In this document: in pieces, positions 19,035 through 48,929 of the stretch
Layout: the number at the start of each line of letters is the position of its first letter
How positions within the stretch are numbered: the stretch's first letter is position 1
Origin: a virus
Reading direction: 5' to 3' (one strand)
DNA length: 64,000 nucleotides
IMG/VR virus record: IMGVR_UViG_3300030202_001434
Span: 1-64,000 of that record
The notes under the pieces: model-generated
Seen by the model: only the letters and a program-made list of their open reading frames with translations
Told to the model about the DNA's origin: nothing
The model's database searches: none
Made by a program: the position numbers and the translations under genes

Positions 19035-19889
19035 TTACTGTCCTAAATATACTGGTGCTGATATTCCTACGCCTGATGAAACAGGAGCAAGTCCAGCTGG
19101 CTGGATAGCATTGACAGTAGGAGTTACTATTCTATTAATAAAGTCAAAATCAAATTGTTCGTTTTTTATTTGTTCCATTATAACTTGTAGTTCTGAACCA
19201 CTCATACTTTCTAAATTAGGTATTTGTGATAACCTATCAATAATAGCACTATCATCTAATCCTTGTAAATTTAATTTTGATTTGTCAGCTGCGGTAATTG
19301 AACCTAACAATTTGCCAGCTCTTCTATCCGCTTTGCTTTTACTGAATGCTGGAACTAAATCAGATGCCGCTCCTGCTACCGCACCAAGACCCTCTACTGC
19401 TTGTTGCATACCTTGGCTTTCTAAACGTCTTTGATCTCTAGCTCTAGCTGACTGATCAGCTGCTGCACCTACATTTATATCTATTAATTGCTGATTAACA
19501 TTTTGCTTTGCATCAGCTTTCATTTTATTGTTTTGATATAAAGCTTCACCCATAGCAATACGAGTTTTTTCACCTTGATCAGCAGCCAAAGCGCCAACCC
19601 TACCTACACCAGAAGCGACTGCTCTCGCATCTCCTTCTTGTAGAGCTTGAAGACTTTGTTGTTGTTGTTGTAATTGTTCTTCAAATTGTTTGTTAAAAGC
19701 ATCTAAAGGAACATTTAGTCCTTCATAAAAGTTTCTTTCAGCTTTTCTTTCAGCCTCTTTCATTAAGAGCTTTGATTCTCTTTCAGCTTTTGCAGCTGCT
19801 CTTCTTGCTTTAGCTGCGTTACCTATACCAATACCCACAGATCCTAGACCTATGGCTGCTGATGTTATTCCTAATGCTAATCCTGACAT
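19035..19889 (-). CDS. internal virion protein, T7 gp14-like
   Basis: A 284-residue protein with the features of gp14-class proteins. The N-terminus is hydrophobic, Gly/Ala-rich (residues 1-26, a possible membrane-inserting helix). An Ala/Arg/Lys-rich stretch follows, then a long Gln/Ala coiled coil (about 60-170, with a Gln run near 73-79). Such proteins form a pore in the outer membrane during DNA ejection. It overlaps the cupin gene's end by 13 nt. Confidence 0.65.
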   Translation of the reverse strand: MSGLALGITSAAIGLGSVGIGIGNAAKARRAAAKAERESKLLMKEAERKAERNFYEGLNVPLDAFNKQFEEQLQQQQQSLQALQEGDARAVASGVGRVGALAADQGEKTRIAMGEALYQNNKMKADAKQNVNQQLIDINVGAAADQSARARDQRRLESQGMQQAVEGLGAVAGAASDLVPAFSKSKADRRAGKLLGSITAADKSKLNLQGLDDSAIIDRLSQIPNLESMSGSELQVIMEQIKNEQFDFDFINRIVTPTVNAIQPAGLAPVSSGVGISAPVYLGQ

Positions 19890-20422
19890 AATAATTTTTT
19901 TTTATTAATTACCAATTGAGGTAAATCTTTATAATTTAAAGTGTACACATCTTTTTGTGCTTCCTTTATTTCGGTTTTATCAGTGCGATAAACACACACC
20001 CATTTACAATCTTCATGCATGTACGCTACTCTTTGCGTTCCTATCTCTGTCATCACTTTCATAGGAGCTTTTATTCTTTTTACTTCTCCTGCATCTGTTA
20101 AGATTGACATCTCGCCTTCTAAAAAAAAAGAAGGATGGTTTTGCTTATGTATAAAACTCACTACCAAAGAACCTTTAGGCATAAATATTTCTCTAGTATA
20201 TAAACCATCTTTTAAATCATGCTTTACTGGAAACACTTCATCCATAGCGTCTGTACTATGTTCTACTGCTCCATCCACTTGACTTAATTGGTTTCTAAAA
20301 GTTTCAATATTTTCCCACAACAAACCTCTGTTCATATGAACATAATTTAACAAAAGTTCTGGAGAATCTTTTTTTGTAAAAAATTTTCTCACTACTTTTT
20401 TTAAACTATTAATTAAGTTCAT
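19877..20422 (-). CDS. cupin-fold protein
   Basis: A 181-residue protein whose central part reads as a cupin. Tyr-Thr-Arg-Glu-Ile-Phe-Met-Pro-Lys-Gly (75-84) is followed by His92 and His96 on a beta strand, a Glu/Gly turn, Ala-Pro (119-120), Gly-Thr-Gln-Arg (128-131) and a later His136. His92/His96/His136 could bind a metal. Related cupins are common in marine phages beside structural genes, role unknown. TATCTTTG at 20430-20437 (- strand) is a likely promoter 7 nt upstream. Confidence 0.65.
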   Translation of the reverse strand: MNLINSLKKVVRKFFTKKDSPELLLNYVHMNRGLLWENIETFRNQLSQVDGAVEHSTDAMDEVFPVKHDLKDGLYTREIFMPKGSLVVSFIHKQNHPSFFLEGEMSILTDAGEVKRIKAPMKVMTEIGTQRVAYMHEDCKWVCVYRTDKTEIKEAQKDVYTLNYKDLPQLVINKKKLLCQD

Positions 20423-20444: not shown

Positions 20445-21200
20445 CTAAGGATAACTTTTCATGATGTCGCTACCTACTGAGAATAGTTCTACCGGTGTTG
20501 TTTTATCATTAGTAAGTGTAAACTCCATGTAATAACCTAACACACCATGTGATTCAGCAACACTGTTTTTATACGATAAAATAAAGTCACCTTGTACAGG
20601 GATATACGCCCCTTGTGCGGATGCGTCTACAGTAATCGTAGTAGCCGTCATTGCTGTAACATACCCTACCAACTCTGGCGTGGTCTTTGCATAGATGGCA
20701 TCTCCTATACTTAGTATACTTCCAAACGGTTCTGTAAATGTTATAACTGTTGCGTTTGCAGGGCCAGCAACTGTTGTAGCTGAGCCTAATCCATTTGCTG
20801 ATCTAAGCTTCCAGTTTACTGTATCTGACTTACTTCTAATAAATGTAAACCACTCTCCTTCTTTTTGCTCAAAGTAAGTATCCAGCATAGATCCAGAATT
20901 AAGATCTGTTTTAATATTAGTAGCCGTCCAACTTGAGTCACTTTCTAATGACATCGTTTTAAATAATTTTATATCTAAAGTAGGCTTAGGATTAAACACT
21001 CCTGTAATAGAAGACGTTCCTTGAATACCATAATAGTTGTTTCTAATAGGGTTTGTATTGTGTCTGTATAAATTACCGCCTTTAAAAGAATAAAAATAAC
21101 TATTCATCCCAATCATATAGTCAGGATAGTAAGTATAGAAAGATGGCCAACCTTGGCTGTCATTGTTATACGATAATGTCTGTAATGTTTCTATAGCCAT
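20445..21200 (-). CDS. virion structural protein, 251 aa
   Basis: A 251-residue beta-rich protein, Tyr/Ser/Thr-rich, without Cys motifs. The first 100 residues (Tyr-Asn-Asn-Asp-Ser-Gln-Gly-Trp-Pro-Ser-Phe-Tyr) resemble a structural protein type I associate with Bacteroidetes podoviruses. Residues ~155-200 look like a small beta domain (Gly-Asp-Ala-Ile-Tyr... Ile-Thr-Val-Asp). It follows the YYH-cassette genes with a 10-nt gap and is probably a tail component. Confidence 0.5.
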   Translation of the reverse strand: MAIETLQTLSYNNDSQGWPSFYTYYPDYMIGMNSYFYSFKGGNLYRHNTNPIRNNYYGIQGTSSITGVFNPKPTLDIKLFKTMSLESDSSWTATNIKTDLNSGSMLDTYFEQKEGEWFTFIRSKSDTVNWKLRSANGLGSATTVAGPANATVITFTEPFGSILSIGDAIYAKTTPELVGYVTAMTATTITVDASAQGAYIPVQGDFILSYKNSVAESHGVLGYYMEFTLTNDKTTPVELFSVGSDIMKSYP

Positions 21201-21210
21201 AATTTTTATT

Positions 21211-22161
21211 TTAACAATCCACTACTGATTGTACCACACCGCTTGCGTTTACATTATACTTCTGATCGCCACCAACACCACCACTTGTTCTATACCATCC
21301 ACTAGACAATGTTGTCGTCCCTGAACTATTAGTGTAACAAGTATCACCAGTTACTGGGTTAGATCCAGATACACCATCATGATAATAGGTAGTATTAACA
21401 GTTTCAAAACACGCATTCGGTGATGTTGTTGATGTTTGTGATGAACTGTATGAATTATAAGTTGAAGGACAACTTGTAACAGCTGACACTGTACCAGTAT
21501 TACTTGATATCTGCATATAAGTTCCATTACCAGTTGTAGATATTTTATAAAATCCATTAGCTAAAAGAGTTGGAGAAGTACCTTCACCTCCAGTTGCCAT
21601 GCAGGAGTTATCATAACACACATCGTTTACTGCAGGCAATGAACCTGAACCATCATGATAGTATGTAGCTGATAATGTACCCACTGAACATGCTAACGTA
21701 GAAGTAGTTTGAGTTGTGCTACTACTAAACGCTGTTCCTGTAACAAACGTTCCTACGCTTGCTACTACACCAGAACCACCAGTAATTGAAATATATTGAG
21801 TCGCTGATATTTTATAAAATCCATTTCCTAAAAACGTCTGCCCTGCATCTGAATAACATACATCTGTAGCCACTGGTGTGCTACCAGAACCATTATGAAA
21901 ATAAGTTTGATTTACTACGCCGTTGTAACAAGCTGACGGAGCATTGTTATATGCGCTAGAACCACTAAAGGTTGTACATTCACATGTAAACGTAGAGCTT
22001 AACACAGGGTTATTAGGCGCACCTGTCTGCTGTCTAAATGTATTAGAAGATGTTTTATACCAGCCATTTGAAGCCGCCGTTGTTAGTGCCGCATCTGTGT
22101 ATATGGCTGTAGCGGTTGCAAAGGACGAGGTATCTAAATAATAGGTTCCTTGCGTTGGCAT
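21211..22161 (-). CDS. YYH-cassette tail protein, one B and three A units
   Basis: A 316-residue Ser/Thr/Gly-rich protein made almost wholly of cassettes. It opens with a B-type unit (Thr-Tyr-Tyr-Leu-Asp...Ile-Tyr-Thr-Asp-Ala-Ala-Leu-Thr...Asn-Gly-Trp-Tyr). Three A-type units follow, each with Tyr-(Tyr/Phe)-His-Asp/Asn-Gly, Pro-x3-Asp-x-Cys-Tyr, Asn/Ser-Gly-(Phe/Trp)-Tyr and a Val-x-Ser-Val-x-x-(Cys/Phe) close. Paired Cys suggest either disulfides or metal sites. Same cassette family as the next two genes upstream and the C-terminus of the tubular tail protein; probably surface-exposed tail decoration or adhesin. Confidence 0.65.
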   Translation of the reverse strand: MPTQGTYYLDTSSFATATAIYTDAALTTAASNGWYKTSSNTFRQQTGAPNNPVLSSTFTCECTTFSGSSAYNNAPSACYNGVVNQTYFHNGSGSTPVATDVCYSDAGQTFLGNGFYKISATQYISITGGSGVVASVGTFVTGTAFSSSTTQTTSTLACSVGTLSATYYHDGSGSLPAVNDVCYDNSCMATGGEGTSPTLLANGFYKISTTGNGTYMQISSNTGTVSAVTSCPSTYNSYSSSQTSTTSPNACFETVNTTYYHDGVSGSNPVTGDTCYTNSSGTTTLSSGWYRTSGGVGGDQKYNVNASGVVQSVVDC

Positions 22162-22177
22162 TTATTTTATTTTATTT

Positions 22178-23176
22178 TTATGCACAATTCGTAACATCTG
22201 CAACAACTCCATTTCCTCCTGCTATCGATACTACTTTTCTAGTTCCTCCATCATCTATACTAATGTGCCCATTTTGGATCGTTGACGTACCACCTACGTT
22301 TGTAAATATTGTATCTCCTGCTGCTGGATAAGTTCCAGATCCATTATGCCAGTAGTTATTAGTTCCTATAGTTGCTGTACAAACACTATTAAATGTTCCG
22401 TTTGGAGTACCTGAGAAATTAGTAAATGTAGCACATCCTGTACAACATACATCATCTGCGCTTGTTCCTTTACATAAGCTGATCGCTGTTGCACAAGCCG
22501 CACATGTGCTAGTGTTAGCATCTAACGTACCATTACCACCTGTTACTTCTTTATAAACTGAAGATGAGCTTGTAATTAATGCATAGAATCCATTACTTGC
22601 AGCTGTAGATCCAGATGCATCTGTATATAATTTAGTTGCCGCTGCAAATGTTGGTTGGTTCATGTAATAAGTTGTAGTTGAACCAGTACAACAAGCTACT
22701 GCGCTTGTACTACCAAACTGTAATCCTATTGCTGGGTAACAAGTAGCACACGCTGTTGCAGCACTAAAGTCTGAACCATCTGTTGCGTTTCCTGTTTTCT
22801 CTCTACTTTCACTGCTGTAAGAATAAAATTGATTCGCAGCAAAGCTACTTAATAAAGGATTGGTGTATACATTGTTCGCTTGATCAAAAGCTGCGTTATC
22901 TAAATAGAATGTAGCTGTCGTTCCTGAACAACATGCAGCAAAAGCTGATGCACCATACCCTAAAGTAAACGCAGTTCCACAAGTTCCACATTGGGCTGAA
23001 GTTCCTAAAGCTCCACTACCACCCGAAACTTCTCTATAAACATTGTTATTATCTTTATACCATCCGTTAGGAGCAGTGTTAGACAGAGCTGCATCTGTAT
23101 ATAATGTAGTTGCTGATCCAGCTTGGCCTGAAGCCCAAACAGTTCCGTTCAAATAATAAGTATCTAATGTAGGCAT
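22178..23176 (-). CDS. YYH-cassette tail protein, three B units and one A unit
   Basis: A 332-residue protein built of three B-type cassettes (each starting Thr-x-Tyr-Tyr or Thr-Phe-Tyr, with Leu-Tyr-Thr-Asp, Asn-Gly-x-Tyr, Cys-x2-Cys and a Cys-Cys pair) and one closing A-type unit (Tyr-Trp-His-Asn-Gly-Ser-Gly). It contains about 20 cysteines, many as Cys-x2-Cys and Cys-Cys, unusual for a phage tail protein, and hints at metal or disulfide stabilisation. A TTTTTTTTG stretch about 28 nt upstream of the start could be a weak promoter. Confidence 0.65.
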   Translation of the reverse strand: MPTLDTYYLNGTVWASGQAGSATTLYTDAALSNTAPNGWYKDNNNVYREVSGGSGALGTSAQCGTCGTAFTLGYGASAFAACCSGTTATFYLDNAAFDQANNVYTNPLLSSFAANQFYSYSSESREKTGNATDGSDFSAATACATCYPAIGLQFGSTSAVACCTGSTTTYYMNQPTFAAATKLYTDASGSTAASNGFYALITSSSSVYKEVTGGNGTLDANTSTCAACATAISLCKGTSADDVCCTGCATFTNFSGTPNGTFNSVCTATIGTNNYWHNGSGTYPAAGDTIFTNVGGTSTIQNGHISIDDGGTRKVVSIAGGNGVVADVTNCA

Positions 23177-23224
23177 GTGATTCTATTTAGTTCAGTAAAT
23201 TTACAAAAAAAATTTATTATATCA

Positions 23225-23725
23225 TCAAGGAGTTCCACAAGGTTCTACGCTTGCCACAAACCCAGTATTGTTAGTTATTCTATATCTGGTACTTGTGCCT
23301 GACGCATTAGTGTGATACCATCCGTTTTGTAATGGAGTGGTTCCTGCTTGATCTTGATATACTAACTCACCCATCGCTGGTATTGTGCCTGAACCGTTAT
23401 GATAAAATGTTTGATCAAATGTTGTATTACCACAAACACTTCCAAAAGTCCCCATAATAGTAGATGTAAAACTTGTGTAAGTAGTCCCACAACCCACACA
23501 ACATACTTCACTTGCTGAAGTTACATCATAACATAATGAGATTGCATCGCCGCATGACGGACAATTAGCTGCTGCTTGAAGAAAACCATTTACTTGTCTT
23601 CTAGATATTGAACCTAAAGAATAATACCCATCCGCAGCTTTAGTTGTTAAAGCTTGGTCGGTAAACAAAGCTATTGCAGTTGCAAAACTGAATCCATCAA
23701 AATAATATGTTGCTCTTGTTGCCAT
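23225..23725 (-). CDS. YYH-cassette tail protein, one B and one A unit
   Basis: A 166-residue minimal version: a B-type unit (Ala-Thr-Tyr-Tyr-Phe-Asp...Leu-Phe-Thr-Asp-Gln-Ala-Leu-Thr...Asp-Gly-Tyr-Tyr), then Cys-x2-Cys and Cys-Cys-x2-Cys, and one A-type unit (Thr-Phe-Tyr-His-Asn-Gly-Ser-Gly) ending near the C-terminus. It starts 7 nt after the tail tubular gene, whose C-terminus carries the same cassettes. Confidence 0.65.
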   Translation of the reverse strand: MATRATYYFDGFSFATAIALFTDQALTTKAADGYYSLGSISRRQVNGFLQAAANCPSCGDAISLCYDVTSASEVCCVGCGTTYTSFTSTIMGTFGSVCGNTTFDQTFYHNGSGTIPAMGELVYQDQAGTTPLQNGWYHTNASGTSTRYRITNNTGFVASVEPCGTP

Positions 23726-23732
23726 AATTTAT

Positions 23733-26700
23733 TTAACAATATTGTAATCCATTTCCGTCTATTTCTCCGTTTTGTGTTGCAAACCATACTGTTGGTGAAC
23801 CGGTAGCGTAAACTAATACGATCGAAGAAACTAATGTTCCTTGATTGTCACTATAGATTTTAGTGCCTGCACCATCACCTGGGCCTGTAGGTGTTGTTGT
23901 ATAATATACTTCATCTAATGCTCCAGAATATATACATGCTGAAGAAGGATTAGGTTGTTGTTTGCAGTTAAACGGATAGTACGTTACTGGTGTACATGTT
24001 ACCACTGCTGAAACCTGACCTGTTCCTTGGTTTAAATTTAAGTATTGTGTAGAAGATATTCTATAATATCCATCAGGTAATATAGTTACACCTTGATCTG
24101 AATAACAGAAGTCTCCTGCTTGAGGAGCTGCATTAGCTCCTGTATGATAGTATGTTTGATTTATCGTTCGTGTACAAATTGTAGACACTTGTTGATCCAC
24201 TACACTTGAACTAAAGTATTTTATTGCACAACTTCCAGTGCTTATAACAATACCATTACTATCTACTCTTATCCACTGATTACTTGAGCCTATTTGATAA
24301 TATCCAGCTGTTAATTTTGTAGCTGTAGGCCCGTCACAGATAGAAGAAGAATAAACTGTATCTCCAATTCCTGGCAACGCATCGAATCCATCATGATAAT
24401 ATGTTTGAGTAGCAGCTTGGATACAAGCAATACTTATAGAATCTTGACCTGTGCTCGAAGAATAAGGTGTACAATAATCTCCACAACCACAACATGCATC
24501 TGATTCAGTAGTTGCATCATAACAGAATGAAGCCGAGTTAGTTGTTCTATAATCATATATTAAATATAAATACTGATTAGCTGTTGGCAATGTAATGTTA
24601 GATACAGTTGCTTGATAAACTCCCGAAGATGGACTGTTAACATCAGCATTAGGTATAGTAGCTGAAGCTGTAAGTAACGCCGTAATTTCACTTGCAGTAT
24701 TATTATATAATGTATTAGAAGATAACCATGCAAAATTATCTTTGTTTACTATCCAATTGTAATCATCAAAATTAATTTTACTAGATCTCAATGTAACATT
24801 TGCACCATTGTAAGGGAATACACCAGTAGATCTAATTCCTTGTTGAACCACATATTGCGATGCAATTTGAGAGTCAGAACCAAACGTCATCATATTAGAT
24901 GAAACAGGGCTAGTAACAACAGCATCGTTCCATTTAAATTCATTATGAATAAATTTACCAGCATCATCTGCTGAGTTTAAACCTATTTGAATTATAGTTA
25001 AACCTTGCTCTATAGGACAATCAACAGTTAAATCATAACTCACCGTTGGGTTTGGAGTAATAGTAACTATAGCAGTTGTTGGAGAGTTTTTAGTTTTATC
25101 AAAATTTAGAGTACCACTTGTTGTAGCATCAGTTACCGAAGCAACCGAGCTGCCATCCCAAGAAACCCCTACACTCATTGTACCGCTATTTATAGTATAA
25201 TTAATTACCACATTACCTATCACATTACCTAACTCAATAGTATACTGATGTTGTGTTGTAGAATTAACTAATGACTTTTGTGTACCACATGGTATAATAA
25301 CAGGTGGTAAAGGAACACTTGTGCTGTTTGTACTTAAAACATACTCATCCATGTATGGATCATAGCCACCTAATTTCTGCGTGTTTAACTGTACATTAAA
25401 TTGATCTCTAAAGTAAGACCTCATTCCTGTGTCAGATATTACTTCTAACGCATCATTATTTTGAGAAGTACCTTTTAGTTTTAATACCGCCGTTCTTTTA
25501 GTGTCTGTAAAATACATATCGTATCCATGCGAAACAAAACTTTCTGGATTATAACTAATACCATATTCTTCTATTCTAGCTATTTGAGTTCCTAAAACTT
25601 GTGGAACAGAAGCAATAACTCCTCCTCCTGTAGAATCACTAATTAAATTTTTACCTGTTAAAACATAACTAATTTTATCTTCTTGTAAAACAAGTATATC
25701 AGTTTCTCTAGAATGTAATTTCATTATAGGCCCAAAACTTGTTTCTAAGTCTTTAAAATTTACTAAACCTAAATTAAATTCATTAAGATTATTTAAATTA
25801 GAATTGCTACTATATATACCACTGTAAGTTAATTCAGCAAATCTATCTGCCTCTTTAAAATCTTGTGTTGATACAGCTAACACCCTTTCACCTAAGTTTA
25901 ACGCTTGACCATCTAATGCATCTAATATCTTATAACTTTCTACACCGTTTCCAAATGTGTAACAATTAAAAAATGGTAGCGTTACAATAGCATCTTGAGT
26001 TGCTGTTTGGTTTTGATCACCATTTCCGTTTCCTCCCATGTGATATCCACCTAAAATATCATAAGACTCCGATGAGTCATAAAACAAATTAGGATCAGCA
26101 TCAGCAGGTTCAGTTTCCCAAACAATTAAATTGTTAGCTCTAGTAACAATTATCTCTGCTTCTATAAACCATGTCCCTGCACTACACGCAATTACACCAC
26201 TTCTACAAGCAAGGTATAATGGTGAAGCTGCGTCTCCTGGAGTTGCTTGCCAAAATTGAAATCTTGGTGTCCAAGGATCTGGGCACTGAATACCACTCGG
26301 GCTAGTTGCAATTGTACTTTCAAAAACAGGTGTTTGAAACCTTCCATTACCATCGTCAATTACATCTCCAACTGCGGGATCTATAAAGTCTCCTACAAAC
26401 CACGCATGTAAATCTGCATAATCATTAGAAGCTACATAATCTTGCTCCCACTCATATTCTATACCATCACATCCGCTATCAAACCTTCCAATTCTCCATT
26501 TTATTTGTACACTAGATTGAGCAGGGATAGTATAATTTGTTGTTACATTATTACTGTCAGTTGTAAAAGCAGGGTATTGTAAGTAAGGAGCGCAGTATGA
26601 CCTGTCTGAACCTCTTTCTTTTATCTCTCCCTCATCTATAACAGCATCTTCAGATAAATTTATACTAAAGTTTTGCCCTCTTATCTGCATGTATAATCCA

Positions 26701-28877
26701 GCTAATTGATTTGACTGAGCTGGAGCTTCGCCTTCTACCTCTAAAAAGTTAGACGATTCAGCGCTTACATCTAAAACTTGGCAAGTTACCTCTCTATTTA
26801 ATGGGCCGTTTGCATCTCTTTTTACTACAAGTATATCTCCCTTTTTTACTTTGTTTTGGTTATCACCTTCTAGTTTAAAATATATAACTCTGGTGCTTGT
26901 GCTTTGATAATAAAAATTAGAATATATTGTTTCATAACCTCCTTCACTTGGTTTTAAAACAAACTTATATTTAGTTGCCCATGCAGGAGGATAGTTTTCT
27001 ATATTAACTTTTATTTTATTTTGATCTACAGATGCTGAAGGAGGAACAAATGTTGTGTTAAATTCAGAAACTAAAACTGTAGAAGCTCTACCGTTATCAT
27101 CCATATAAACAATACCTGTTTCATAATCTCTATTACTATGTAAAGAAGAAGTGTCTTGGCTTGAAGTAAATGTTCCTTGTCCTCTTGAAAAATTAAAATA
27201 TTCATACACATTAGTATTTCCTGAAGTATATTTCATTGCTAATACTTGTAAAGAAAATACATTAGAACCTACCGTAGAACCTATTCTAAACCCTTGTTGT
27301 GTTTGCGCATCTATACTACTATTTGTTTTAGTAAAAGAACAATTAGTTGGTACGATTGTTACTGTATTAAATAAATCGGTTAGAGATGTTCCCGAAGCTG
27401 ATGACGCTAAAGGCTGAAAGTTTGAGTTCAAAACTGTACCTATACGTTCAGCAAACTCAACTGAATTAACCATTTCGTAAACAGAAGTATAGTTTTTATT
27501 TATTGGAAATATAACCCTAAGTTCAAATGGAATATTGTTAAAAGCCGCATCATAACAAGCGTCTGATGTGTCGCCATTTAATTGAGAATGTTCAATAAAT
27601 AAAGTAAAAGATAAAGTTGTACCTTTTTTTAGTTTATTAGCTTGTTCTGTTAAATCAAAATTAATTTTTGAATTTTGAACTGTAGTGCTAGTGTTTGGAT
27701 TTATAGTATATACATCACCGGTTGATACTGTAGGCTCAGCTAATTCTTCAAATAAAATATCATTAGTAAATAAAGAAGTAGTAAAGTTGATTGGTATATC
27801 TTGACCAGCTGCATTGACTATATCATAACCATCTGTATAGTTACCATATATAAGTCTATTACCTTGTATTGTTTGCGCTTTAGCAACCTTAGGTACGTTG
27901 TCATATAGTCTTAATAACTCATCACTACCTAATACTGTATAAATTTTACTATTAGTAAAAGTATATGTTTGTTTAGTGTTATTAGCCCATCCATAATCTG
28001 ACTTCTTAAATCTTTCAATAACATAAATAGAATTTGTATTACTTGGTTTAAATAATAAATCTACTTCAATTACTTTATCAGAACCTGTTTCAAATTCAAC
28101 CTCAGCTGAATTATAAATGTTCTTCATTGAACCGTTATTAAAATTATTTACATCAAACTGAAATGGCCCTGGTTGAAAAGCTGCAACAGAAAATAATGAC
28201 GTTGCACTATATTCATTGTTTACATACCTATACCTATAAGCAAAAGTAATAAACCTAGTATCCATATAATTCTCTTCACCAGGTATATCTATTAAGTTTA
28301 CTTTTGGAGCTGGCAATGTGTCTAAAGAATCAAAACCAGGTGGTTTTAAAATAACACTAATATCACTTTCTTTTATAATGTCTGTAACCCCAGAAGGATC
28401 AGAATAATTTTGTGTTACGTTTATTTTTCTTGGAGGATTTTTATCGTCTGTAAAAAACAAAAGATCTTCTATTTTGTTTACACCTGTTATTAAAAACTTT
28501 GGATCAAAATTTAAAACAGTTGTACTAACAACATGATAAGTTATAGCTTCTGTTTGTATGTTAAAAGAAACGATTAAATCTAACTTACCGCCTATTACAG
28601 GGTTATTAGAATCATGCACAAACCAATATATAGTTTCTTTAGAACCATCTTCATACGCACCAATACATATAGCTGAATTAGAAAGATTCTGTCCTCCGTA
28701 AGCTAATGTAGTTAATTGTGAGTTTCCTTTAGAGTTTTCTACCGCACCTATTTCTGTAGTTTCAGTTGCTCCTAATCTAACATTGATTGCGTTTATATAT
28801 TGGCCTTTTGGAACAAGACGTTCATCAACGCTCTTATTCATTTTACCTGCAATAAAATTTGTATTTACTATTGGCAT
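23733..28877 (-). CDS. tail tubular/stabilisation ('muzzle') protein with C-terminal YYH cassettes, 1714 aa
   Basis: A 1714-residue protein. The N-terminus (Pro-Ile-Val-Asn-Thr-Asn-Phe-Ile-Ala-Gly-Lys-Met-Asn-Lys-Ser) with Asp-Glu-Arg-Leu (18-21) and Asn-Val-Arg-Leu-Gly (32-36) is typical of phage tail stabilisation/T7 gp12-like proteins of Bacteroidetes podoviruses, including crAss-like muzzle proteins. The long middle is beta-rich. The last ~220 residues contain two clear A cassettes (Thr-Tyr-Tyr-His-Asp-Gly-Phe and Thr-Tyr-Tyr-His-Thr-Gly-Ala) and a degenerate third (Val-Tyr-Tyr-Thr-Thr). It forms the distal tail tube, with cassettes probably exposed. Confidence 0.7.
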   Translation of the reverse strand: MPIVNTNFIAGKMNKSVDERLVPKGQYINAINVRLGATETTEIGAVENSKGNSQLTTLAYGGQNLSNSAICIGAYEDGSKETIYWFVHDSNNPVIGGKLDLIVSFNIQTEAITYHVVSTTVLNFDPKFLITGVNKIEDLLFFTDDKNPPRKINVTQNYSDPSGVTDIIKESDISVILKPPGFDSLDTLPAPKVNLIDIPGEENYMDTRFITFAYRYRYVNNEYSATSLFSVAAFQPGPFQFDVNNFNNGSMKNIYNSAEVEFETGSDKVIEVDLLFKPSNTNSIYVIERFKKSDYGWANNTKQTYTFTNSKIYTVLGSDELLRLYDNVPKVAKAQTIQGNRLIYGNYTDGYDIVNAAGQDIPINFTTSLFTNDILFEELAEPTVSTGDVYTINPNTSTTVQNSKINFDLTEQANKLKKGTTLSFTLFIEHSQLNGDTSDACYDAAFNNIPFELRVIFPINKNYTSVYEMVNSVEFAERIGTVLNSNFQPLASSASGTSLTDLFNTVTIVPTNCSFTKTNSSIDAQTQQGFRIGSTVGSNVFSLQVLAMKYTSGNTNVYEYFNFSRGQGTFTSSQDTSSLHSNRDYETGIVYMDDNGRASTVLVSEFNTTFVPPSASVDQNKIKVNIENYPPAWATKYKFVLKPSEGGYETIYSNFYYQSTSTRVIYFKLEGDNQNKVKKGDILVVKRDANGPLNREVTCQVLDVSAESSNFLEVEGEAPAQSNQLAGLYMQIRGQNFSINLSEDAVIDEGEIKERGSDRSYCAPYLQYPAFTTDSNNVTTNYTIPAQSSVQIKWRIGRFDSGCDGIEYEWEQDYVASNDYADLHAWFVGDFIDPAVGDVIDDGNGRFQTPVFESTIATSPSGIQCPDPWTPRFQFWQATPGDAASPLYLACRSGVIACSAGTWFIEAEIIVTRANNLIVWETEPADADPNLFYDSSESYDILGGYHMGGNGNGDQNQTATQDAIVTLPFFNCYTFGNGVESYKILDALDGQALNLGERVLAVSTQDFKEADRFAELTYSGIYSSNSNLNNLNEFNLGLVNFKDLETSFGPIMKLHSRETDILVLQEDKISYVLTGKNLISDSTGGGVIASVPQVLGTQIARIEEYGISYNPESFVSHGYDMYFTDTKRTAVLKLKGTSQNNDALEVISDTGMRSYFRDQFNVQLNTQKLGGYDPYMDEYVLSTNSTSVPLPPVIIPCGTQKSLVNSTTQHQYTIELGNVIGNVVINYTINSGTMSVGVSWDGSSVASVTDATTSGTLNFDKTKNSPTTAIVTITPNPTVSYDLTVDCPIEQGLTIIQIGLNSADDAGKFIHNEFKWNDAVVTSPVSSNMMTFGSDSQIASQYVVQQGIRSTGVFPYNGANVTLRSSKINFDDYNWIVNKDNFAWLSSNTLYNNTASEITALLTASATIPNADVNSPSSGVYQATVSNITLPTANQYLYLIYDYRTTNSASFCYDATTESDACCGCGDYCTPYSSSTGQDSISIACIQAATQTYYHDGFDALPGIGDTVYSSSICDGPTATKLTAGYYQIGSSNQWIRVDSNGIVISTGSCAIKYFSSSVVDQQVSTICTRTINQTYYHTGANAAPQAGDFCYSDQGVTILPDGYYRISSTQYLNLNQGTGQVSAVVTCTPVTYYPFNCKQQPNPSSACIYSGALDEVYYTTTPTGPGDGAGTKIYSDNQGTLVSSIVLVYATGSPTVWFATQNGEIDGNGLQYC

Positions 28878-41751: not shown

Positions 41752-41762
41752 ATAAAATAAAT

Positions 41763-44700
41763 CTATTGTTTTTGGGATTTAAGATTTTCTACTTCTGCTT
41801 TTAGTTCTTGTATTGACTTAACTAATAAAGGAACTATTTTAGAATAATCCACAGATTGCATTTCTTCTGCATCTTTTTCTCCTATAACTGCTTGTGGTAA
41901 AACTTCTTCAAGTTCGTGAGCCATAACACCATAACTTCTACTTTCATCTGTTTTCCATTTAAAGTCATATACAGGTATTTTAGAAACCATATCTAAACCT
42001 GCAAAATCTTTTAAATCTTCTTTTAATCTATAATCAGAAGATGTATTGTAGGCAGTTGCAGTTGTAGTAGATATTATACTACCAACTACTGTTCCTGTAT
42101 GAAAAAATTGTATCATAGTGTGTGTACCACTATGCCCACCTAATTTTAAAGTTGCCTCACTACCAGAGCCAAAAACAGCACTTACAACTGATGATGATAC
42201 TGTTGTTGAATTTGTGCCAATACAAACTTGACCTGCAGATTGTATTCTCATTGCCTCTGAGCCTCTTAAAGCAAATTGTAAAGTAGAGCCACCTGTATTT
42301 CCTATTCTCTGAGCAATAATTTTCGCAGTATCTGTGTAAACATTAATATCTCTAAAAACAATAGCACCACCTTTTCCAACATTGTGATTGTTTTCTCCAC
42401 AATCTAATCTTAGTAATTCATTAACTGTGTTGTCTCCTGCTTGTTTGTAAATATGGAGTTTAGCATTAATATCTCCTGGTCCATCATCAGTTCCAATTCC
42501 TACACCAGTTCTATTTATCTTCATGAGAGTATTTAAACTCACATCACTACCAACAGTTGTTTGTGAATTTGAACTATCCATCTTGAATGAAAATGATGTG
42601 CCTCCAATTTCCAAAGCACTATGTCCACCACTAAAATTTCCATAAGTAGATGTGTAACCACTGCTACCTGCTTTACCTTGCGCACCATAACCCATTATAA
42701 AGTTTCCACTAGAATAATGTGAACTAATAACTCCTAAATGATGTGGAGAAGCATAGTTTTGCTTAAGAACCGCTCCCCCATTTGTTGAAGAAGGACCGGC
42801 AGCTATAGCACCATTATGCACATGTAATTTTTCAGAAGGTGATGTTGTTCCGATTCCCACCCTTTGGTTTGTATTATCAATTCTAACAACTTCTCCATTT
42901 GAACCAGATCCAATTTTAACACTTCTTGAACTAGCCCCCTCTAAATTTAATACTCCAGCGGTATTTTTTAATCTACCAACGACTGTATCACCAGTAGCTC
43001 CACCAACCATGAATGAATGAGAATTATTAATAGCAACGCTACCATTAGCTACAGATAATTTTTCTGATGGTGATGTTGTTCCGATTCCTACGTTTCCGTC
43101 AGAACCTAATATTGTCATTCTTGTATTATCACCTACTCTAAATGACATTCTATCTGGGCTATGCCCATAAAATATTTGACCTACATTAGCATCATCATTA
43201 TCGCTAAAATTAATAAAACATTCCCCAGTGTTAGATGCTGACAATATTGTCATACCTGTCGAAGCACTTGACCTTAATGTTAATTGAGAACCAGCCGCAG
43301 GCGATGAAGTTCCTATTCCTACGTTTGAAGCTGGAAATACTACATTGTTGCCAAGTGGATTTATTCTTAATTCTTGCGATTCAAATGATTGAATCCATTT
43401 ATAACCACCAGTTTGATAATCTCCAAAACCTAAACCGCCGCCAGTAGGTGAATTGTCTCCATTTGCACTTATAATTCCATTTACTTCTAATCTAACACCA
43501 GCATTAGGCGAAGCTGTTCCAATTCCTACGTTTCCTGAATTATTAATGGTTAATTTTGCATCACTTTTTGAAACGTTATTTCCATTAACTTCATTATTGA
43601 CAGCTAGGTGTAAACTTCCTCTACCCTGTGTAGTTGTTCTTTCAAAGAAAATACCTGATTTAACATAAGTATTATTGCTAAGCATACTAAATCCGATACT
43701 AGCTGAATCTCCATTAGTATCATTTTCATTCGCTATTAGTAAATTATTTGAATCTCCTGATGCATCACCAGTTACAGTTAGTTTTCTACCAGGATTTGTC
43801 GTTCCAATTCCTACGTTGCCATTACCTTGTAAAGTCATAATAGTAGGAGCTTCAGATGAACCTGCCCACGCATATCCATTATTTGTTTCTCCCCTTACTT
43901 TAAACTTTAATTTTGTTAAAAAATTTGTATTAGATGTTCCTTCTGCTCCAATCCAAGCGTGCCTACCGTGACTTGAACCATTAGCAGTACCTACTAATTC
44001 TAAAGCAGCAGCTCCTGTTGTTGTGCCAGAAGTACTTGCATATGAACTTATCCTAGAATATGCAAGTCTGTCTGTTACATTACCTGAAAAATTAGTTAAT
44101 TGTTCATCTCCAGATACTACTTGAAGTTTAGCGGAAGCATTAGTTAACCCAATTCCTAAGTTTGAATTATAAAATGTAGCCATTTGACCTGCGGTATCAA
44201 AAAACGCTATAGATTCCGCAGCACCACTTGTTCCTCCTTTTATTTGTAATCTATCTGTTCCTGCTCCAAAACCTATCATGTCAATAACAGCACTTCCAGT
44301 ATTTCTTTTACCTTGTAAAAATTTACCATTAGTTCCTATTAAAACATCCGCTACATTAAAAGTATAGCTACTTGCATAGAAATCTAAAGATGCATAACCT
44401 AAATTACCAGATTGTCTATTAAAACTTTGAATATAATTAGGTGCAATTTCTATATTTTGATTATTATTAGTGCCATTTGCTACAACAAATTTATTTTGTG
44501 GCGAAATCGTTCCTATTCCTACATTACCTGAACTAAGTAATGTCACTCTATCATTTGTTCCTAAATTACCCGAAGCAGCAATTTTAAATTTACTACTATC
44601 ATCGTGGTCAATACCTATAACATAACTTTGACCAGATACATTAAAAGTTAAAGAAGCATCTCCACTACTTCCATTTTGAATTAATACTTGAGGTGTATCA

Positions 44701-45224
44701 TCAGTTGTACTTGTATAAATATGTAATTTTTTTTCAGGATCATTTGCATTACCTATCATTACATTTCCATTATCGTCCCAAAGTTGCACGATATTTCCAG
44801 CGTTATTTAATAATCTTAAATTATCACCACCGCTTCCCCAGTTTTGTAAAGTCCAAGTTTTAGCATCATTTTTAAGTTTCAATCCAACTTCTGAATTAGC
44901 TGAACTATCAGATACTCTTATATTAGTATTGCCATCATCGTCAGAAATATCTAAAATTTCGGTCGGATTATTATTGTTTATTCCAATATTACCGGTGTTT
45001 TGTACTCTTATTCTTTCAGTATCATTAGTTTTTATGCTTAATGGATGTAATGTACTTGTTCCAAAAGACATAGTAGTATTTGAATCGTGATAACTCCAAT
45101 CGGATTTAACTGCACCACCACTTCTTTGTGCTTCAAATATTTTAACAGAATTTCCGGCAGTATATGTTCCTATACCTGTAATTGTACCTGTTATATTTTC
45201 ACCACTTAATATTCTTATTGCCAT
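41763..45224 (-). CDS. tail fibre with S74 intramolecular chaperone, GIGT repeats, 1153 aa
   Basis: An 1153-residue fibre. N-terminal attachment Met-Ala-Ile-Arg-Ile-Leu-Ser-Gly matches the other two fibres. The shaft contains about nine copies of (Gly/Ser)-Asn-Val-Gly-Ile-Gly-Thr-x-Ser-Pro-type repeats typical of beta-helical or beta-prism marine phage fibres. The C-terminal ~92 residues (from about 1062) are a Peptidase_S74 chaperone: Ser-Asp-Tyr-Arg-Leu-Lys contains the Ser/Lys catalytic pair, then His-Glu-Leu-Glu-Glu-Val-Leu-Pro and a coiled coil. S74 domains trimerise the fibre and then cut themselves off. Confidence 0.8.
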   Translation of the reverse strand: MAIRILSGENITGTITGIGTYTAGNSVKIFEAQRSGGAVKSDWSYHDSNTTMSFGTSTLHPLSIKTNDTERIRVQNTGNIGINNNNPTEILDISDDDGNTNIRVSDSSANSEVGLKLKNDAKTWTLQNWGSGGDNLRLLNNAGNIVQLWDDNGNVMIGNANDPEKKLHIYTSTTDDTPQVLIQNGSSGDASLTFNVSGQSYVIGIDHDDSSKFKIAASGNLGTNDRVTLLSSGNVGIGTISPQNKFVVANGTNNNQNIEIAPNYIQSFNRQSGNLGYASLDFYASSYTFNVADVLIGTNGKFLQGKRNTGSAVIDMIGFGAGTDRLQIKGGTSGAAESIAFFDTAGQMATFYNSNLGIGLTNASAKLQVVSGDEQLTNFSGNVTDRLAYSRISSYASTSGTTTGAAALELVGTANGSSHGRHAWIGAEGTSNTNFLTKLKFKVRGETNNGYAWAGSSEAPTIMTLQGNGNVGIGTTNPGRKLTVTGDASGDSNNLLIANENDTNGDSASIGFSMLSNNTYVKSGIFFERTTTQGRGSLHLAVNNEVNGNNVSKSDAKLTINNSGNVGIGTASPNAGVRLEVNGIISANGDNSPTGGGLGFGDYQTGGYKWIQSFESQELRINPLGNNVVFPASNVGIGTSSPAAGSQLTLRSSASTGMTILSASNTGECFINFSDNDDANVGQIFYGHSPDRMSFRVGDNTRMTILGSDGNVGIGTTSPSEKLSVANGSVAINNSHSFMVGGATGDTVVGRLKNTAGVLNLEGASSRSVKIGSGSNGEVVRIDNTNQRVGIGTTSPSEKLHVHNGAIAAGPSSTNGGAVLKQNYASPHHLGVISSHYSSGNFIMGYGAQGKAGSSGYTSTYGNFSGGHSALEIGGTSFSFKMDSSNSQTTVGSDVSLNTLMKINRTGVGIGTDDGPGDINAKLHIYKQAGDNTVNELLRLDCGENNHNVGKGGAIVFRDINVYTDTAKIIAQRIGNTGGSTLQFALRGSEAMRIQSAGQVCIGTNSTTVSSSVVSAVFGSGSEATLKLGGHSGTHTMIQFFHTGTVVGSIISTTTATAYNTSSDYRLKEDLKDFAGLDMVSKIPVYDFKWKTDESRSYGVMAHELEEVLPQAVIGEKDAEEMQSVDYSKIVPLLVKSIQELKAEVENLKSQKQ

Positions 45225-45234
45225 AATTATTTAT

Positions 45235-45714
45235 TTAACAGTATTGAGGATATCCCGAATCAACAACTCCTTGGTTAGTAGATATTAAAATATATAATCT
45301 ATTACCCACTCCTGTTGCTGCGTTTATATTATAATACCCTGCCGCTAATACATTAGTTCCAGCGCTATCACTATAACAAGTGTCACCTGCTGTAGGTGTT
45401 GAACCAGAACCGTTGTGATAATATGTTTGTGTACAACACGGATTAAACCCGCTAAAACTACACGCTTGATTAAAAACACCCATTGTTGACGAACTATATG
45501 ACGTTAAAGATACAAAACTTCGTCCGTAAAATTCAGAGAACGCATGTGGTGCACTCTGATTTACTGGCGGGCTAGCTGTTGCGTATATCTTAACCAATGA
45601 TCCCGCCTGAGGTGTGGATGCTCCGGCTAATTTAGTATTAGCTGTGTTACCTGCCCTAGACGCTTCTACATTTATCATGTTTGCCGATATGGTTCCTGAA
45701 CTTGGTAATGCCAT
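45235..45714 (-). CDS. tail-associated protein with one YYH cassette, 159 aa
   Basis: A 159-residue protein. The N-terminus (Met-Ala-Leu-Pro-Ser-Ser-Gly-Thr-Ile-Ser, ending at Phe-Ser-Glu-Phe-Tyr-Gly-Arg-Ser) is a common short virion attachment segment of marine phage adhesins. The C-terminal half is a single A-type YYH cassette (Thr-Tyr-Tyr-His-Asn-Gly-Ser-Gly, Gly-Asp-Thr-Cys-Tyr-Ser-Asp, Ala-Gly-Tyr-Tyr) ending in Cys. It links the fibre module to the muzzle cassettes 20 kb away. Confidence 0.65.
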   Translation of the reverse strand: MALPSSGTISANMINVEASRAGNTANTKLAGASTPQAGSLVKIYATASPPVNQSAPHAFSEFYGRSFVSLTSYSSSTMGVFNQACSFSGFNPCCTQTYYHNGSGSTPTAGDTCYSDSAGTNVLAAGYYNINAATGVGNRLYILISTNQGVVDSGYPQYC

Positions 45715-45718
45715 TATT

Positions 45719-46198
45719 TTATTTTTTTATCATACATATCGCTATATACCTATCATTTACTGTTGAGTTTTTATAACCATGTTTAAAATCCCAATTATTT
45801 AAATACATAATTCCCTCCGAAATAGTGGTCGGCGCTTGTTTTAATTTTACATCTTGAACATCGTAAAACTCTGTAGATGTTCCACTGTCTATTAAATTTA
45901 TAATAATAACACCTAATATATCTTCATTATCAAAATGAGGTATTAATTCAAAGTTAGGTAAGTTTTTTTGTATTTCAACATAAAGCACATACGGTTGAGA
46001 TATTTTTTGATCTATTACTTTTTTATCGAAACATGCTTTTATTTCTTTTATAGCATCTTTATTAGTACAATAAAATCTACCTGTATCTTTTTCTTCGTAA
46101 CTCAAATTTTCATAATCTAAAGCAGGCAATGGGTTTATTGAAGCTTCCCATAAATCTAAACCGTCTATATACTGTGTATTACTTATAACTAAACTCAT
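45719..46198 (-). CDS. putative Fe(II)/2-oxoglutarate oxygenase-like protein, 159 aa
   Basis: A 159-residue protein with the motif order of the prolyl-4-hydroxylase-like double-stranded beta helix: His88-Phe-Asp90 (after Ile-Pro), beta strand Gly-Val-Ile-Ile-Ile-Asn-Leu, Ser-Thr-Glu-Phe-Tyr (108-112), then His140 and Arg150 ten residues on. His/Asp/His would bind iron and Arg the 2-oxoglutarate. The gene sits between two tail fibre and cassette genes, so it could hydroxylate tail proteins or host targets. The motif is compact and I did not compare profiles. Confidence 0.6.
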   Translation of the reverse strand: MSLVISNTQYIDGLDLWEASINPLPALDYENLSYEEKDTGRFYCTNKDAIKEIKACFDKKVIDQKISQPYVLYVEIQKNLPNFELIPHFDNEDILGVIIINLIDSGTSTEFYDVQDVKLKQAPTTISEGIMYLNNWDFKHGYKNSTVNDRYIAICMIKK

Positions 46199-46199
46199 A

Positions 46200-48929
46200 T
46201 TATTTGTTTTCTAATTCTTTTACTCTTGCTTCTAGCTCTTGAATTGATTTTATCAATACAGGTACTAATTTACTATAATCTACAGCTTGTAATTTTTCTT
46301 CATCTTTATCTCCTACAACCGCTTGCGGAATTACTTCTTGTAATTCATGAGCAACAACACCATACATTCTATTATCGCTTTCTTTCCATTTAAAATCATA
46401 GACTTGTATTTGTTCTAACAAACTCATACCATCAAAAGATTTTAAATCTTCTTTTGACCTATAGTCAGATGTATTGGCATAAAATATATCACTACCATTT
46501 GTTGTTATATAACCAACTTGAGTTGTACTGTAATAAAAATCAAAAAACGAAGGAGAGGTATTGTCTACTCTATATCTTGCACAACCAGACGCTCCATCTG
46601 TACCTGTATAATAATTATAGATATTATAAGAGCTAGTACCGTTTACTATGTTAAGCCAACCAGTGGTTGTTCCCAAACCAGTACTAGTGTTAGTTTGTTG
46701 TATGGTAATCCTACCTTGATTAGTAATTCTCAAAGGTCTTCTACTATTACTAATATCATTTAGATATATTGCACCAATCTCTCTTCCTGTTACTGGAATA
46801 CCATCAGTAGATTTAACATTAAATGCATAAGCTCCTGAATATAATCCACTACCGTTATCCATGTAACCTATTGTAAACCGAGCATTGTTATGTAACCAAT
46901 AACTAGGTGTAGCATTCGCATTAAAAAGACCATCGGCTGTATAAGCTGTATTAATACCCGATTCTATATATACTCTTGTAGCGCCACCTGCTTTTAATTC
47001 CATAAAATCACCAAAGTGAGTGTACTGAACTTGTCCTCTGTTCTTAGCATCCGAATCACCAAAGTACAATGAGGATGTTGCACTATTAATATTAGACACT
47101 ATTGCTATTTTTGGATTAGCTGTACCGCCAATTTCTAAATTGTAACTAGGCGAACTTGTTCCTATTCCTACGTTTCCTCCATTTACAATATAAACACGCC
47201 CTGATCCAGAATTAGTTCCTAAAACTAAAGAACCTGTACTCGCTGATGATATACCTAAATCAGCATCTGCTAAGCCGTTTATTGCCCAATCACCTGTTCC
47301 TATATAACCTCTTGTTGTTGTATTTTCTACAAATCTTATAGCTGGATGATCACCAACTCTTTTTATTTGTATAACACCATTTACTTCAAGTTTTTCCCCA
47401 GGAGATGTAGCCCCAATTCCTATATTACCGCTGTCTGCAATCCATAATCTATAAGCAGTTCCATCATATATTCCTAAATTACCAGTGTCTATACTTATAA
47501 ATTGATACTCATTACCATTTGTTGCTGTAGAATTTAATATAAGTTTACCTTCATTTGCATTACTTCTTATTGTTCCTGTTACATCTAATTTATGACTAGG
47601 CGAAGTAGTTCCAATTCCTACTCTTAAGTTGGGATCTAGAGTCATAAGCACTTGTTCGCTACCTCCAGTTGGATTCCCAGCGCCTCTATAAAAATAAAAT
47701 TTGTTATCAGCATCTGTTGCTCTAGAACTTAACGCCCAATAAACACCTTGCCAACTTGTTTCATTTGCAGCAGCAGTATGACCAAATAATATATCAGCAG
47801 GATAACTGTTACTAGTAGAATCTAATCTAATATCAGCCCTTCCAGAAAGCGCCCAATTTCTACCTGCTCTAACACCGAACACATCTAGTGGCGCAGTCGG
47901 GCTAGTAGTTTGAATACCTACATAACCACCTGTTGTTATTTGAAGTTTAGTTTGTGCAGCGTAAGAAGATTGAGAACCGTCAGCCGCATATCCAATATTA
48001 AAACCACTTTGGTTATAACCACTACCAACAAACCATTCTCTATCAGTACTGCCACCGCTTGTAGTAACGTTATCTTTTATTTTTATTCCAACACCACGCC
48101 CATCGTAACCATGCAGGTTTATTCTAGATGTCATAGCTGGGGAGCCACCATTGTCAGGCGCAGTTACATTAAGAATTGTGTCAAAAGAACCATTGCCTTC
48201 AAAAGTTGCATTGCCAATACTATCGATTATAAATGTTCGTTCTGTTGTTCCGGCACTATCGTCATACCATTTGAACTCTAAACTATCATTGCTTGTGCCT
48301 CTAATTATATAAATATCGTTTGGATCTGAGAAGCTATTACTATCAGTAAAACCTAATGTTGGTGAGGTGTTGTTAATGTAAATATCAGCACCAGTTGTAC
48401 CACCAGTTACAGTAATACCTCCACTAAAATTTCCACTACCTATATTTACTAAATTCCTACTAGAATCCATCACATAAGTGCCATTTAACTGATATGCTGA
48501 AGCGTTTACTAATGAAAAATGTCCTGTGCCTGATGATCCGGTTATATTTCCTGTAACTGTTAAATTTCCGCCTGCAACAACATTCCCTGTAAAATCTGCT
48601 GTGGTTCCTGTTATAGCGCCAGTTGAGCCATCAATTATTTGTGTAAATGAATTAACAACTCCGTATGCTAAACCAGCTGCTAAAATATATTGACCACTTT
48701 GTAAAGTACCAGCTAATGTGCTAGATCCAGAAACTCTAAGATAAGTAGCTCCAGAAACTCCAGTAATCATTTCGTGATCACCAAACCCCATTATACGAGC
48801 AGTGGTGTTAGAACCATTACCCACATATAGTATACCTGATGATACTCTTAAATTTCCACCGGATGTTATAGCGCCAGTTGTGCTTAGTGTGCTGTCTATA
48901 GTCTGGTTGCTTAATGTTCTAATTGCCAT
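46200..48929 (-). CDS. tail fibre with S74 intramolecular chaperone, 909 aa
   Basis: A 909-residue fibre. N-terminal Met-Ala-Ile-Arg-Thr-Leu-Ser-Asn-Gln-Thr-Ile matches the other fibres. The shaft is Gly/Thr/Ser-rich with four Val/Ile-Gly-Ile-(Gly/Gln)-(Thr/Ala)-Thr/Ser-Ser-Pro repeats. The C-terminal 90 residues (from about 820) are an S74 domain with Ser-Asp-Tyr-Arg-Ser-Lys, Ala-His-Glu-Leu-Gln-Glu-Val-Ile-Pro and Val-Asp-Tyr-Ser-Lys-Leu. The S74 part is closely similar to that of the 1153-residue fibre, so one probably arose by duplication. Confidence 0.8.
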   Translation of the reverse strand: MAIRTLSNQTIDSTLSTTGAITSGGNLRVSSGILYVGNGSNTTARIMGFGDHEMITGVSGATYLRVSGSSTLAGTLQSGQYILAAGLAYGVVNSFTQIIDGSTGAITGTTADFTGNVVAGGNLTVTGNITGSSGTGHFSLVNASAYQLNGTYVMDSSRNLVNIGSGNFSGGITVTGGTTGADIYINNTSPTLGFTDSNSFSDPNDIYIIRGTSNDSLEFKWYDDSAGTTERTFIIDSIGNATFEGNGSFDTILNVTAPDNGGSPAMTSRINLHGYDGRGVGIKIKDNVTTSGGSTDREWFVGSGYNQSGFNIGYAADGSQSSYAAQTKLQITTGGYVGIQTTSPTAPLDVFGVRAGRNWALSGRADIRLDSTSNSYPADILFGHTAAANETSWQGVYWALSSRATDADNKFYFYRGAGNPTGGSEQVLMTLDPNLRVGIGTTSPSHKLDVTGTIRSNANEGKLILNSTATNGNEYQFISIDTGNLGIYDGTAYRLWIADSGNIGIGATSPGEKLEVNGVIQIKRVGDHPAIRFVENTTTRGYIGTGDWAINGLADADLGISSASTGSLVLGTNSGSGRVYIVNGGNVGIGTSSPSYNLEIGGTANPKIAIVSNINSATSSLYFGDSDAKNRGQVQYTHFGDFMELKAGGATRVYIESGINTAYTADGLFNANATPSYWLHNNARFTIGYMDNGSGLYSGAYAFNVKSTDGIPVTGREIGAIYLNDISNSRRPLRITNQGRITIQQTNTSTGLGTTTGWLNIVNGTSSYNIYNYYTGTDGASGCARYRVDNTSPSFFDFYYSTTQVGYITTNGSDIFYANTSDYRSKEDLKSFDGMSLLEQIQVYDFKWKESDNRMYGVVAHELQEVIPQAVVGDKDEEKLQAVDYSKLVPVLIKSIQELEARVKELENK

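Follow-up and report, generated by a model that had tools for sequence, protein, structure and literature searches.

In the window analysed here, the first 64,000 of the 65,232 bases of the uncultured virus record IMGVR_UViG_3300030202_001434, we found that the tail-tip muzzle protein is encoded by two genes, MUZN and MUZC, and that three small cassette genes between them (c1, c2 and c3) are built from repeat units of one family. We interpret this locus as a crassvirus-type muzzle that has become a scaffold of two genes; between them lies an exchange site for candidate host-recognition proteins, which consist of a small domain not described before. We estimate a probability of about 0.7 that the cassette genes encode receptor-binding (adhesin) modules that dock on the split muzzle. 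A wider proposal is that the propeller chain was opened into two encoded halves and that the break became a permanent docking and exchange site for an undescribed class of host-recognition proteins, a virus-specific Cys-bearing beta domain without a solved relative; we put this forward tentatively, at slightly less than even odds.

Two genes for one muzzle chain

The structural genes of the window are of the crAss-related podovirus type, with matches to portal and terminase PHROGs, and its muzzle homologue is related to those of Cellulophaga, Flavobacterium, Tenacibaculum and Maribacter phages (tblastn with MUZN matched phi13:2, phi38:1 and the elemo phages). These relationships make a flavobacterium, or some other bacterium of the Bacteroidota, the probable host.

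MUZC carries PF25729, the crassvirus muzzle C-terminal domain, at 47.5 bits against a curated cut-off of 27. The same domain lies within a single chain in crAss001 gp44 (residues 1244-1333 of 1371), in phi38:1 (1125-1202 of 1324) and in elemoA (1279-1350 of 1470). By homology, MUZN and MUZC are two genes for a chain that these three phages encode as one. No match to the main muzzle domain, PF25731, was obtained with MUZN, phi38:1 or elemoA, and MUZN is best described as a muzzle homologue outside the Pfam PF25731 model, not as a member of that family; we call it a muzzle homologue because it matches phrog_14478 (Table 1) and aligns by hhalign to the C-terminal part of gp44. For the alignment, gp44 was fetched by accession and compared with a joined MUZN/MUZC profile, which placed the break at about gp44 residue 1190-1202, around 1197, ahead of a conserved 'YS...F.SF' strand. 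Read with the domain description in PMC10172136, this position points to a loop within the last propeller strands or blade. MUZN and MUZC correspond by homology to successive stretches of the gp44 chain (PF25731 plus PF25729; PMC10172136), but the muzzle of the window is encoded by two genes, bears extra tail domains and cassette units and, in the clade of the window, has one to three genes at the break.

We surveyed further muzzle loci, which were found through the muzzle itself and not picked for cassettes, with known duplicates removed. The muzzle was split at all 61 scorable viral loci, which are the closest relatives of the window, some of them near-copies, and so do not represent 61 independent events. 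At least one unit was present in the MUZN tail or in the gap at 60 of the 61. The gap usually measured 395-3211 bp and held one gene, with up to three genes, as in the window. The census had two fused muzzle loci, those of phi38:1 and elemoA, both without units. One locus with a split muzzle (L182) has a 451-bp gap downstream of MUZN in which no unit was detected, and this gap may hold an unrelated insert at the equivalent site. At two others (L079:86-4907 and L119) the muzzle open reading frame (ORF) stops early, at 1269 aa, and the final unit lies in a separate short ORF (L079:4569-4907), possibly through a frameshift or a further split.

Our literature search found no description of a split muzzle. 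The same break point was present in the cultured Cellulophaga phages phi13:2 and phi19:3 (Baltivirus, Pachyviridae), in which MUZC is a separate 241-aa gene and both halves carry a structural annotation based on their resemblance to phi8:3 gp114 and gp115. In these phages, unlike in the window, the halves are adjacent with no gene in the gap and YYHxG-type units are absent; the MUZN tail of phi13:2 has a Big_9/cadherin-like domain instead.

A family of small cysteine-bearing units

The units are of two types, A and B. An earlier note, made from the sequence of the window, had described the repeat in five tail genes with about nine A-type and five B-type units, and both counts were confirmed. 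The A units comprise three in c1 (residues 84, 164 and 256), one in c2 (272), one in c3 (105), one in the tail-region protein g45 (95) and three at the muzzle end (1490, 1573 and ~1652), of which two are clear and the third, M3, is degenerate; the B units comprise one in c1, three in c2 and one in c3.

In leave-one-out tests with profile hidden Markov models (HMMs), A units scored 42-75 bits and B units 34-73 bits, M3 excepted, and none of 20,000 composition-matched shuffles reached these scores (top shuffle in the A runs, 14-16 bits). M3 obtained only 3.4 bits in the single-sequence test and holds only as an orthologue profile (24.5 versus at most 15.9 for shuffles), so that of the three muzzle-end units claimed earlier two stand clearly and the last at profile level. 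The A HMM placed four of six B units above all decoys, and the B HMM five of eight A units. A profile-profile comparison of A with B gave 94.5%, with a score of 39.2 versus at most 16.1 in 30 column-shuffled controls. Because most cross-scores beat the decoys and the profile comparison beat the shuffled columns, we assign A and B units, at the level of their sequences, to one superfamily. With an iterated HMM, 520 matches were spread over 244 real ORFs, and reversed or shuffled ORFs gave none. The earlier view of one modular cassette family located at the tail tip is supported. Recent tandem duplication at the DNA level was ruled out, with only short repeats of 61-74% identity within the cassette genes.

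AlphaFold2 models of c3 (B plus A; predicted local distance difference test (pLDDT) 81.8, predicted template modelling score (pTM) 0.57) and of one A unit alone (pLDDT 82.8, pTM 0.72) both predict a small, mainly beta domain. The motif repeat reported earlier was real, but the 'Ser-rich linker' that was said to follow it forms, in the models, the strand with which the domain opens (c3 residues 84-88), which would make the A unit about 80-90 residues long and not 60-75. Each A unit has two invariant or nearly invariant Cys, together with conserved His, Gly, Pro, Asp and Tyr positions, and B units contain CxxC; Cys-based metal or disulfide stabilisation of the units is plausible. A Cys-rich stretch resembling 'CYD..(S/T)...(A/V)CC.(G)C' stands at the end of the MUZN tail (~24480-24530) and again in c2 and c3 behind their B units, in the manner of a common joint, with a putative metal or disulfide role.

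No Pfam or NCBIfam family exceeded its cut-off for the unit, and Foldseek searches of the PDB with models at pLDDT 82-83 gave no fold match (best E 1.3 with two units and 2.3 with one). The unit is a small domain family without a Pfam entry or a solved fold. Structure searches of BFVD returned 12 viral proteins at E <= 0.001, the named ones being uncharacterised and one of them from phi17:1. A weak NCBIfam LysW match at c3 53-84, far under its cut-off, reflects the CxxC pattern only. Two scans of 84,980 species genomes yielded pattern matches but no confirmed bacterial relative, by a method that needs exact short peptides and in which absence is not proof.

Among cultured phages, tblastn found no match for c1, and c3 matched only the Manatee Spring podovirus MW202828. 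This phage has a split muzzle with one inserted gene beginning with a B-type unit, but the gene has that single unit only. Its annotation as 'putative glycosidase' found no support in our searches, and an enzyme annotation was rejected: the cassette proteins of the window and ten relatives had no Pfam or NCBIfam glycosidase match. The unit also matches phrog_21885 (function unknown), and an A-type unit ends hypothetical tail-region proteins of phi18:1 (gp62, L027:5746-6186) and phi17:1 (gp62, L028:2749-3186). These proteins resemble g45 in having a single C-terminal A-type unit, but the phages are unrelated to that of the window and belong to another genus (Helsingorvirus) with a tape measure gene and without a muzzle, and the proteins have no B-type N-terminus. 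The gene for phi18:1 gp62 adjoins those of tail proteins confirmed by mass spectrometry, and this cultured phage is a ready laboratory system for the unit. Proteins like g45, in a similar place and neighbourhood, were found in many marine contigs.

Conserved starts, variable ends and candidate host binding

Almost always, the break is filled by modules of one kind, conserved where they begin and variable where they end. The first unit starts at residue 4-14 after the first Met, mostly at 4-8, in 85 of 86 inserted ORFs, and the single exception is a fragment with its first Met close to the end. The N-terminal unit is of B type, with a consensus of approximately MAxxxTYYFDGxSFxxATxVYTDxxLTxxAxDGYY...RQQxxG...L...CxxC, in which R (79/79), L (79/79), G (78/78) and Y (78/78) are conserved throughout. 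The units that follow are variable and often A-type. Mean pairwise identity was 46% among first units and 33% among last units.

Comparison with the relative L013 showed that c3 (99%), MUZC (96%) and the B and A1 units of c1 (94%) are nearly identical to those of the window, whereas the last unit of c1 (A3) is 42% and the last unit of c2 (A) 53% identical. Along c1 the DNA identity drops from ~94% to 53% and is back at 92% in MUZC, with sharp borders. Since the last units diverge while their neighbours stay conserved and the borders are sharp, we conclude from the alignments that C-terminal units are swapped as modules inside a conserved scaffold.

Receptor-binding proteins commonly have a conserved N-terminal anchor and a variable C-terminus (PMC12692247, PMC13082707). 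The inserted proteins share this layout and the exchange of distal modules, but they have other domains, and they lie in a split muzzle gene and not in a fibre or tailspike gene as described there. A conserved N-terminal part and a variable, exchanged C-terminal part were both found in the inserted proteins, and the N-terminal part would have the anchoring role. Host-surface binding, suggested in the earlier note, is the likeliest reading of this conserved N-terminus with fast-changing, exchanged C-terminal units. In crAss001 the muzzle sits at the tail tip, its exposed loops are proposed as cell contact and its length varies by insertion (PMC10172136). Both these proposals and the receptor-binding-protein layout fit the present case, but neither tests it.

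We propose that the products of MUZN and MUZC come together again as a single muzzle subunit. The gap is an insertion site, and the one to three genes that it takes up are built from a single family of small beta domains. The N-terminal B unit may dock the inserted protein to the muzzle or its tail domains, and the variable later units may contact the host surface, the C-terminal unit being the most variable and replaced between close relatives. Because the MUZN tail bears units of the same family, each muzzle subunit would show an array of units at the tail tip. Separate module genes at the scaffold break would allow recombination to swap whole binding modules, with propeller and gate undisturbed. 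Across a large aquatic clade, the break marks a candidate site at which the muzzle of crAss-related phages would meet the host. The cassette proteins are direct candidates for host-range determinants in uncultured Bacteroidota phages, and a simple rule for searching metagenomes is to look between the muzzle N-part and PF25729.

Several points weigh against this interpretation. The proteins c1-c3 are known as sequences, which makes their presence in the virion and their binding predictions, and docking of the B unit is argued from position and conservation. No carbohydrate-binding family or fold was recognised in the cassettes. Profile searches of the PDB with MUZN and MUZC gave chance matches only and did not retrieve gp44, and the hhalign alignment to gp44 spans only ~230 columns near the C-terminus (93.5%).

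The cassette genes might instead encode cargo or ejected proteins merely encoded beside the muzzle, with units that act in the periplasm or during ejection; the crAss001 cargo protein C1 (gp45) is indeed encoded directly downstream of the muzzle (PMC10172136). We consider this unlikely. The cassette genes sit between the muzzle halves and not after them, the same unit family is fused to the muzzle tail and to tail-region proteins, and the terminal units are exchanged in the manner of binding tips. It is also improbable that the cassettes, rather than binding receptors, serve as spacers or decoration with a structural role in stabilising the split muzzle, and vary under weak constraint. The two near-invariant Cys of each A unit and the CxxC of B units do suggest a rigid, stabilised domain, and crAss001 tails use disulfides (PMC10172136), but the variability is concentrated in the last unit, with sharp mosaic borders and replacement of whole units beside 94% identical neighbours.

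The earlier note had also seen the stand-alone genes as recent copies of the muzzle C-terminus, a view that the shared unit family and the direct adjacency would favour but that is now very improbable, as units from different phages group according to their position (in a weakly resolved tree), switches of gene context between muzzle tail, gap gene and elsewhere number 19 versus 61 with shuffled labels (on a poorly resolved tree of 62 columns), and the stand-alone proteins start with a B unit, whereas no B unit was seen at the end of the window muzzle. The adjacency itself was correctly noted, but the gene beside the cassettes that encodes the muzzle C-terminal part (20445-21200) had been left out; the place of the cassette genes, inside the gap of the split muzzle, explains the adjacency better than copying. 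Because the units group by position and their lineages largely retain their gene context, the cassette array appears to be old. In the same weakly resolved tree one group joins the g45 A unit to the final muzzle unit of L045/L046, as copying would also allow, and some moves between gene contexts have therefore probably occurred.

Coordinates and neighbouring genes

Table 1. Features of the split muzzle locus and of g45 in the window
Feature	Position	Strand	Support
MUZN, whole gene	23733-28877	-	
MUZN core (residues 1-1185), equivalent by homology to the unsplit muzzle chain as far as the break	25323-28877	-	phrog_14478 4.8e-247; tblastn; hhalign to crAss001 gp44
MUZN tail (residues ~1186-1469), further domains between core and cassettes, CC-x-C motif at end	24471-25322	-	
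Muzzle C-terminal A-type units, all three	23736-24470	-	Profile tests
Muzzle unit M1, A-type	24222-24470	-	
Muzzle unit M2, A-type	23982-24221	-	
Muzzle unit M3, A-type, degenerate	23736-23981	-	
c3, inserted cassette protein, 166 aa: N-terminal B (23489-23725), A (23228-23488)	23225-23725	-	
c2, inserted cassette protein, 332 aa: B1 (22931-23176), B2 (22691-22930), B3 (22442-22690), A (22181-22441)	22178-23176	-	
c1, inserted cassette protein, 316 aa: B (21976-22161), A1 (21742-21975), A2 (21466-21741), A3 (21214-21465)	21211-22161	-	
MUZC, muzzle C-part, 251 aa, separate gene; last propeller strands and crAss_MUZ_C domain by alignment	20445-21200	-	PF25729 2.5e-12; phrog_38031 5e-61
g45, tail-region protein, N-terminus 'MALPSSG...SEFYG', single C-terminal A unit (45238-45507)	45235-45714	-	

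Directly after MUZC lies a 181-aa gene (19877-20422) with matches (1e-25) to PHROGs named 'short tail fiber' and 'tail fiber adhesin'; the gene at the equivalent position in MW202828 bears the annotation of an acetyltransferase subunit. The g45 gene is near tail-fibre genes carrying S74 chaperone domains. Two of the fibre genes, 41763-45224 and 46200-48929, both end in a Peptidase_S74 chaperone domain, and a third S74 fibre lies at 49367-53134. A 286-nt repeat, 72% identical (41753-42038 versus 46184-46469), covers the 3' ends of the first two, and such common fibre C-termini could favour recombination.

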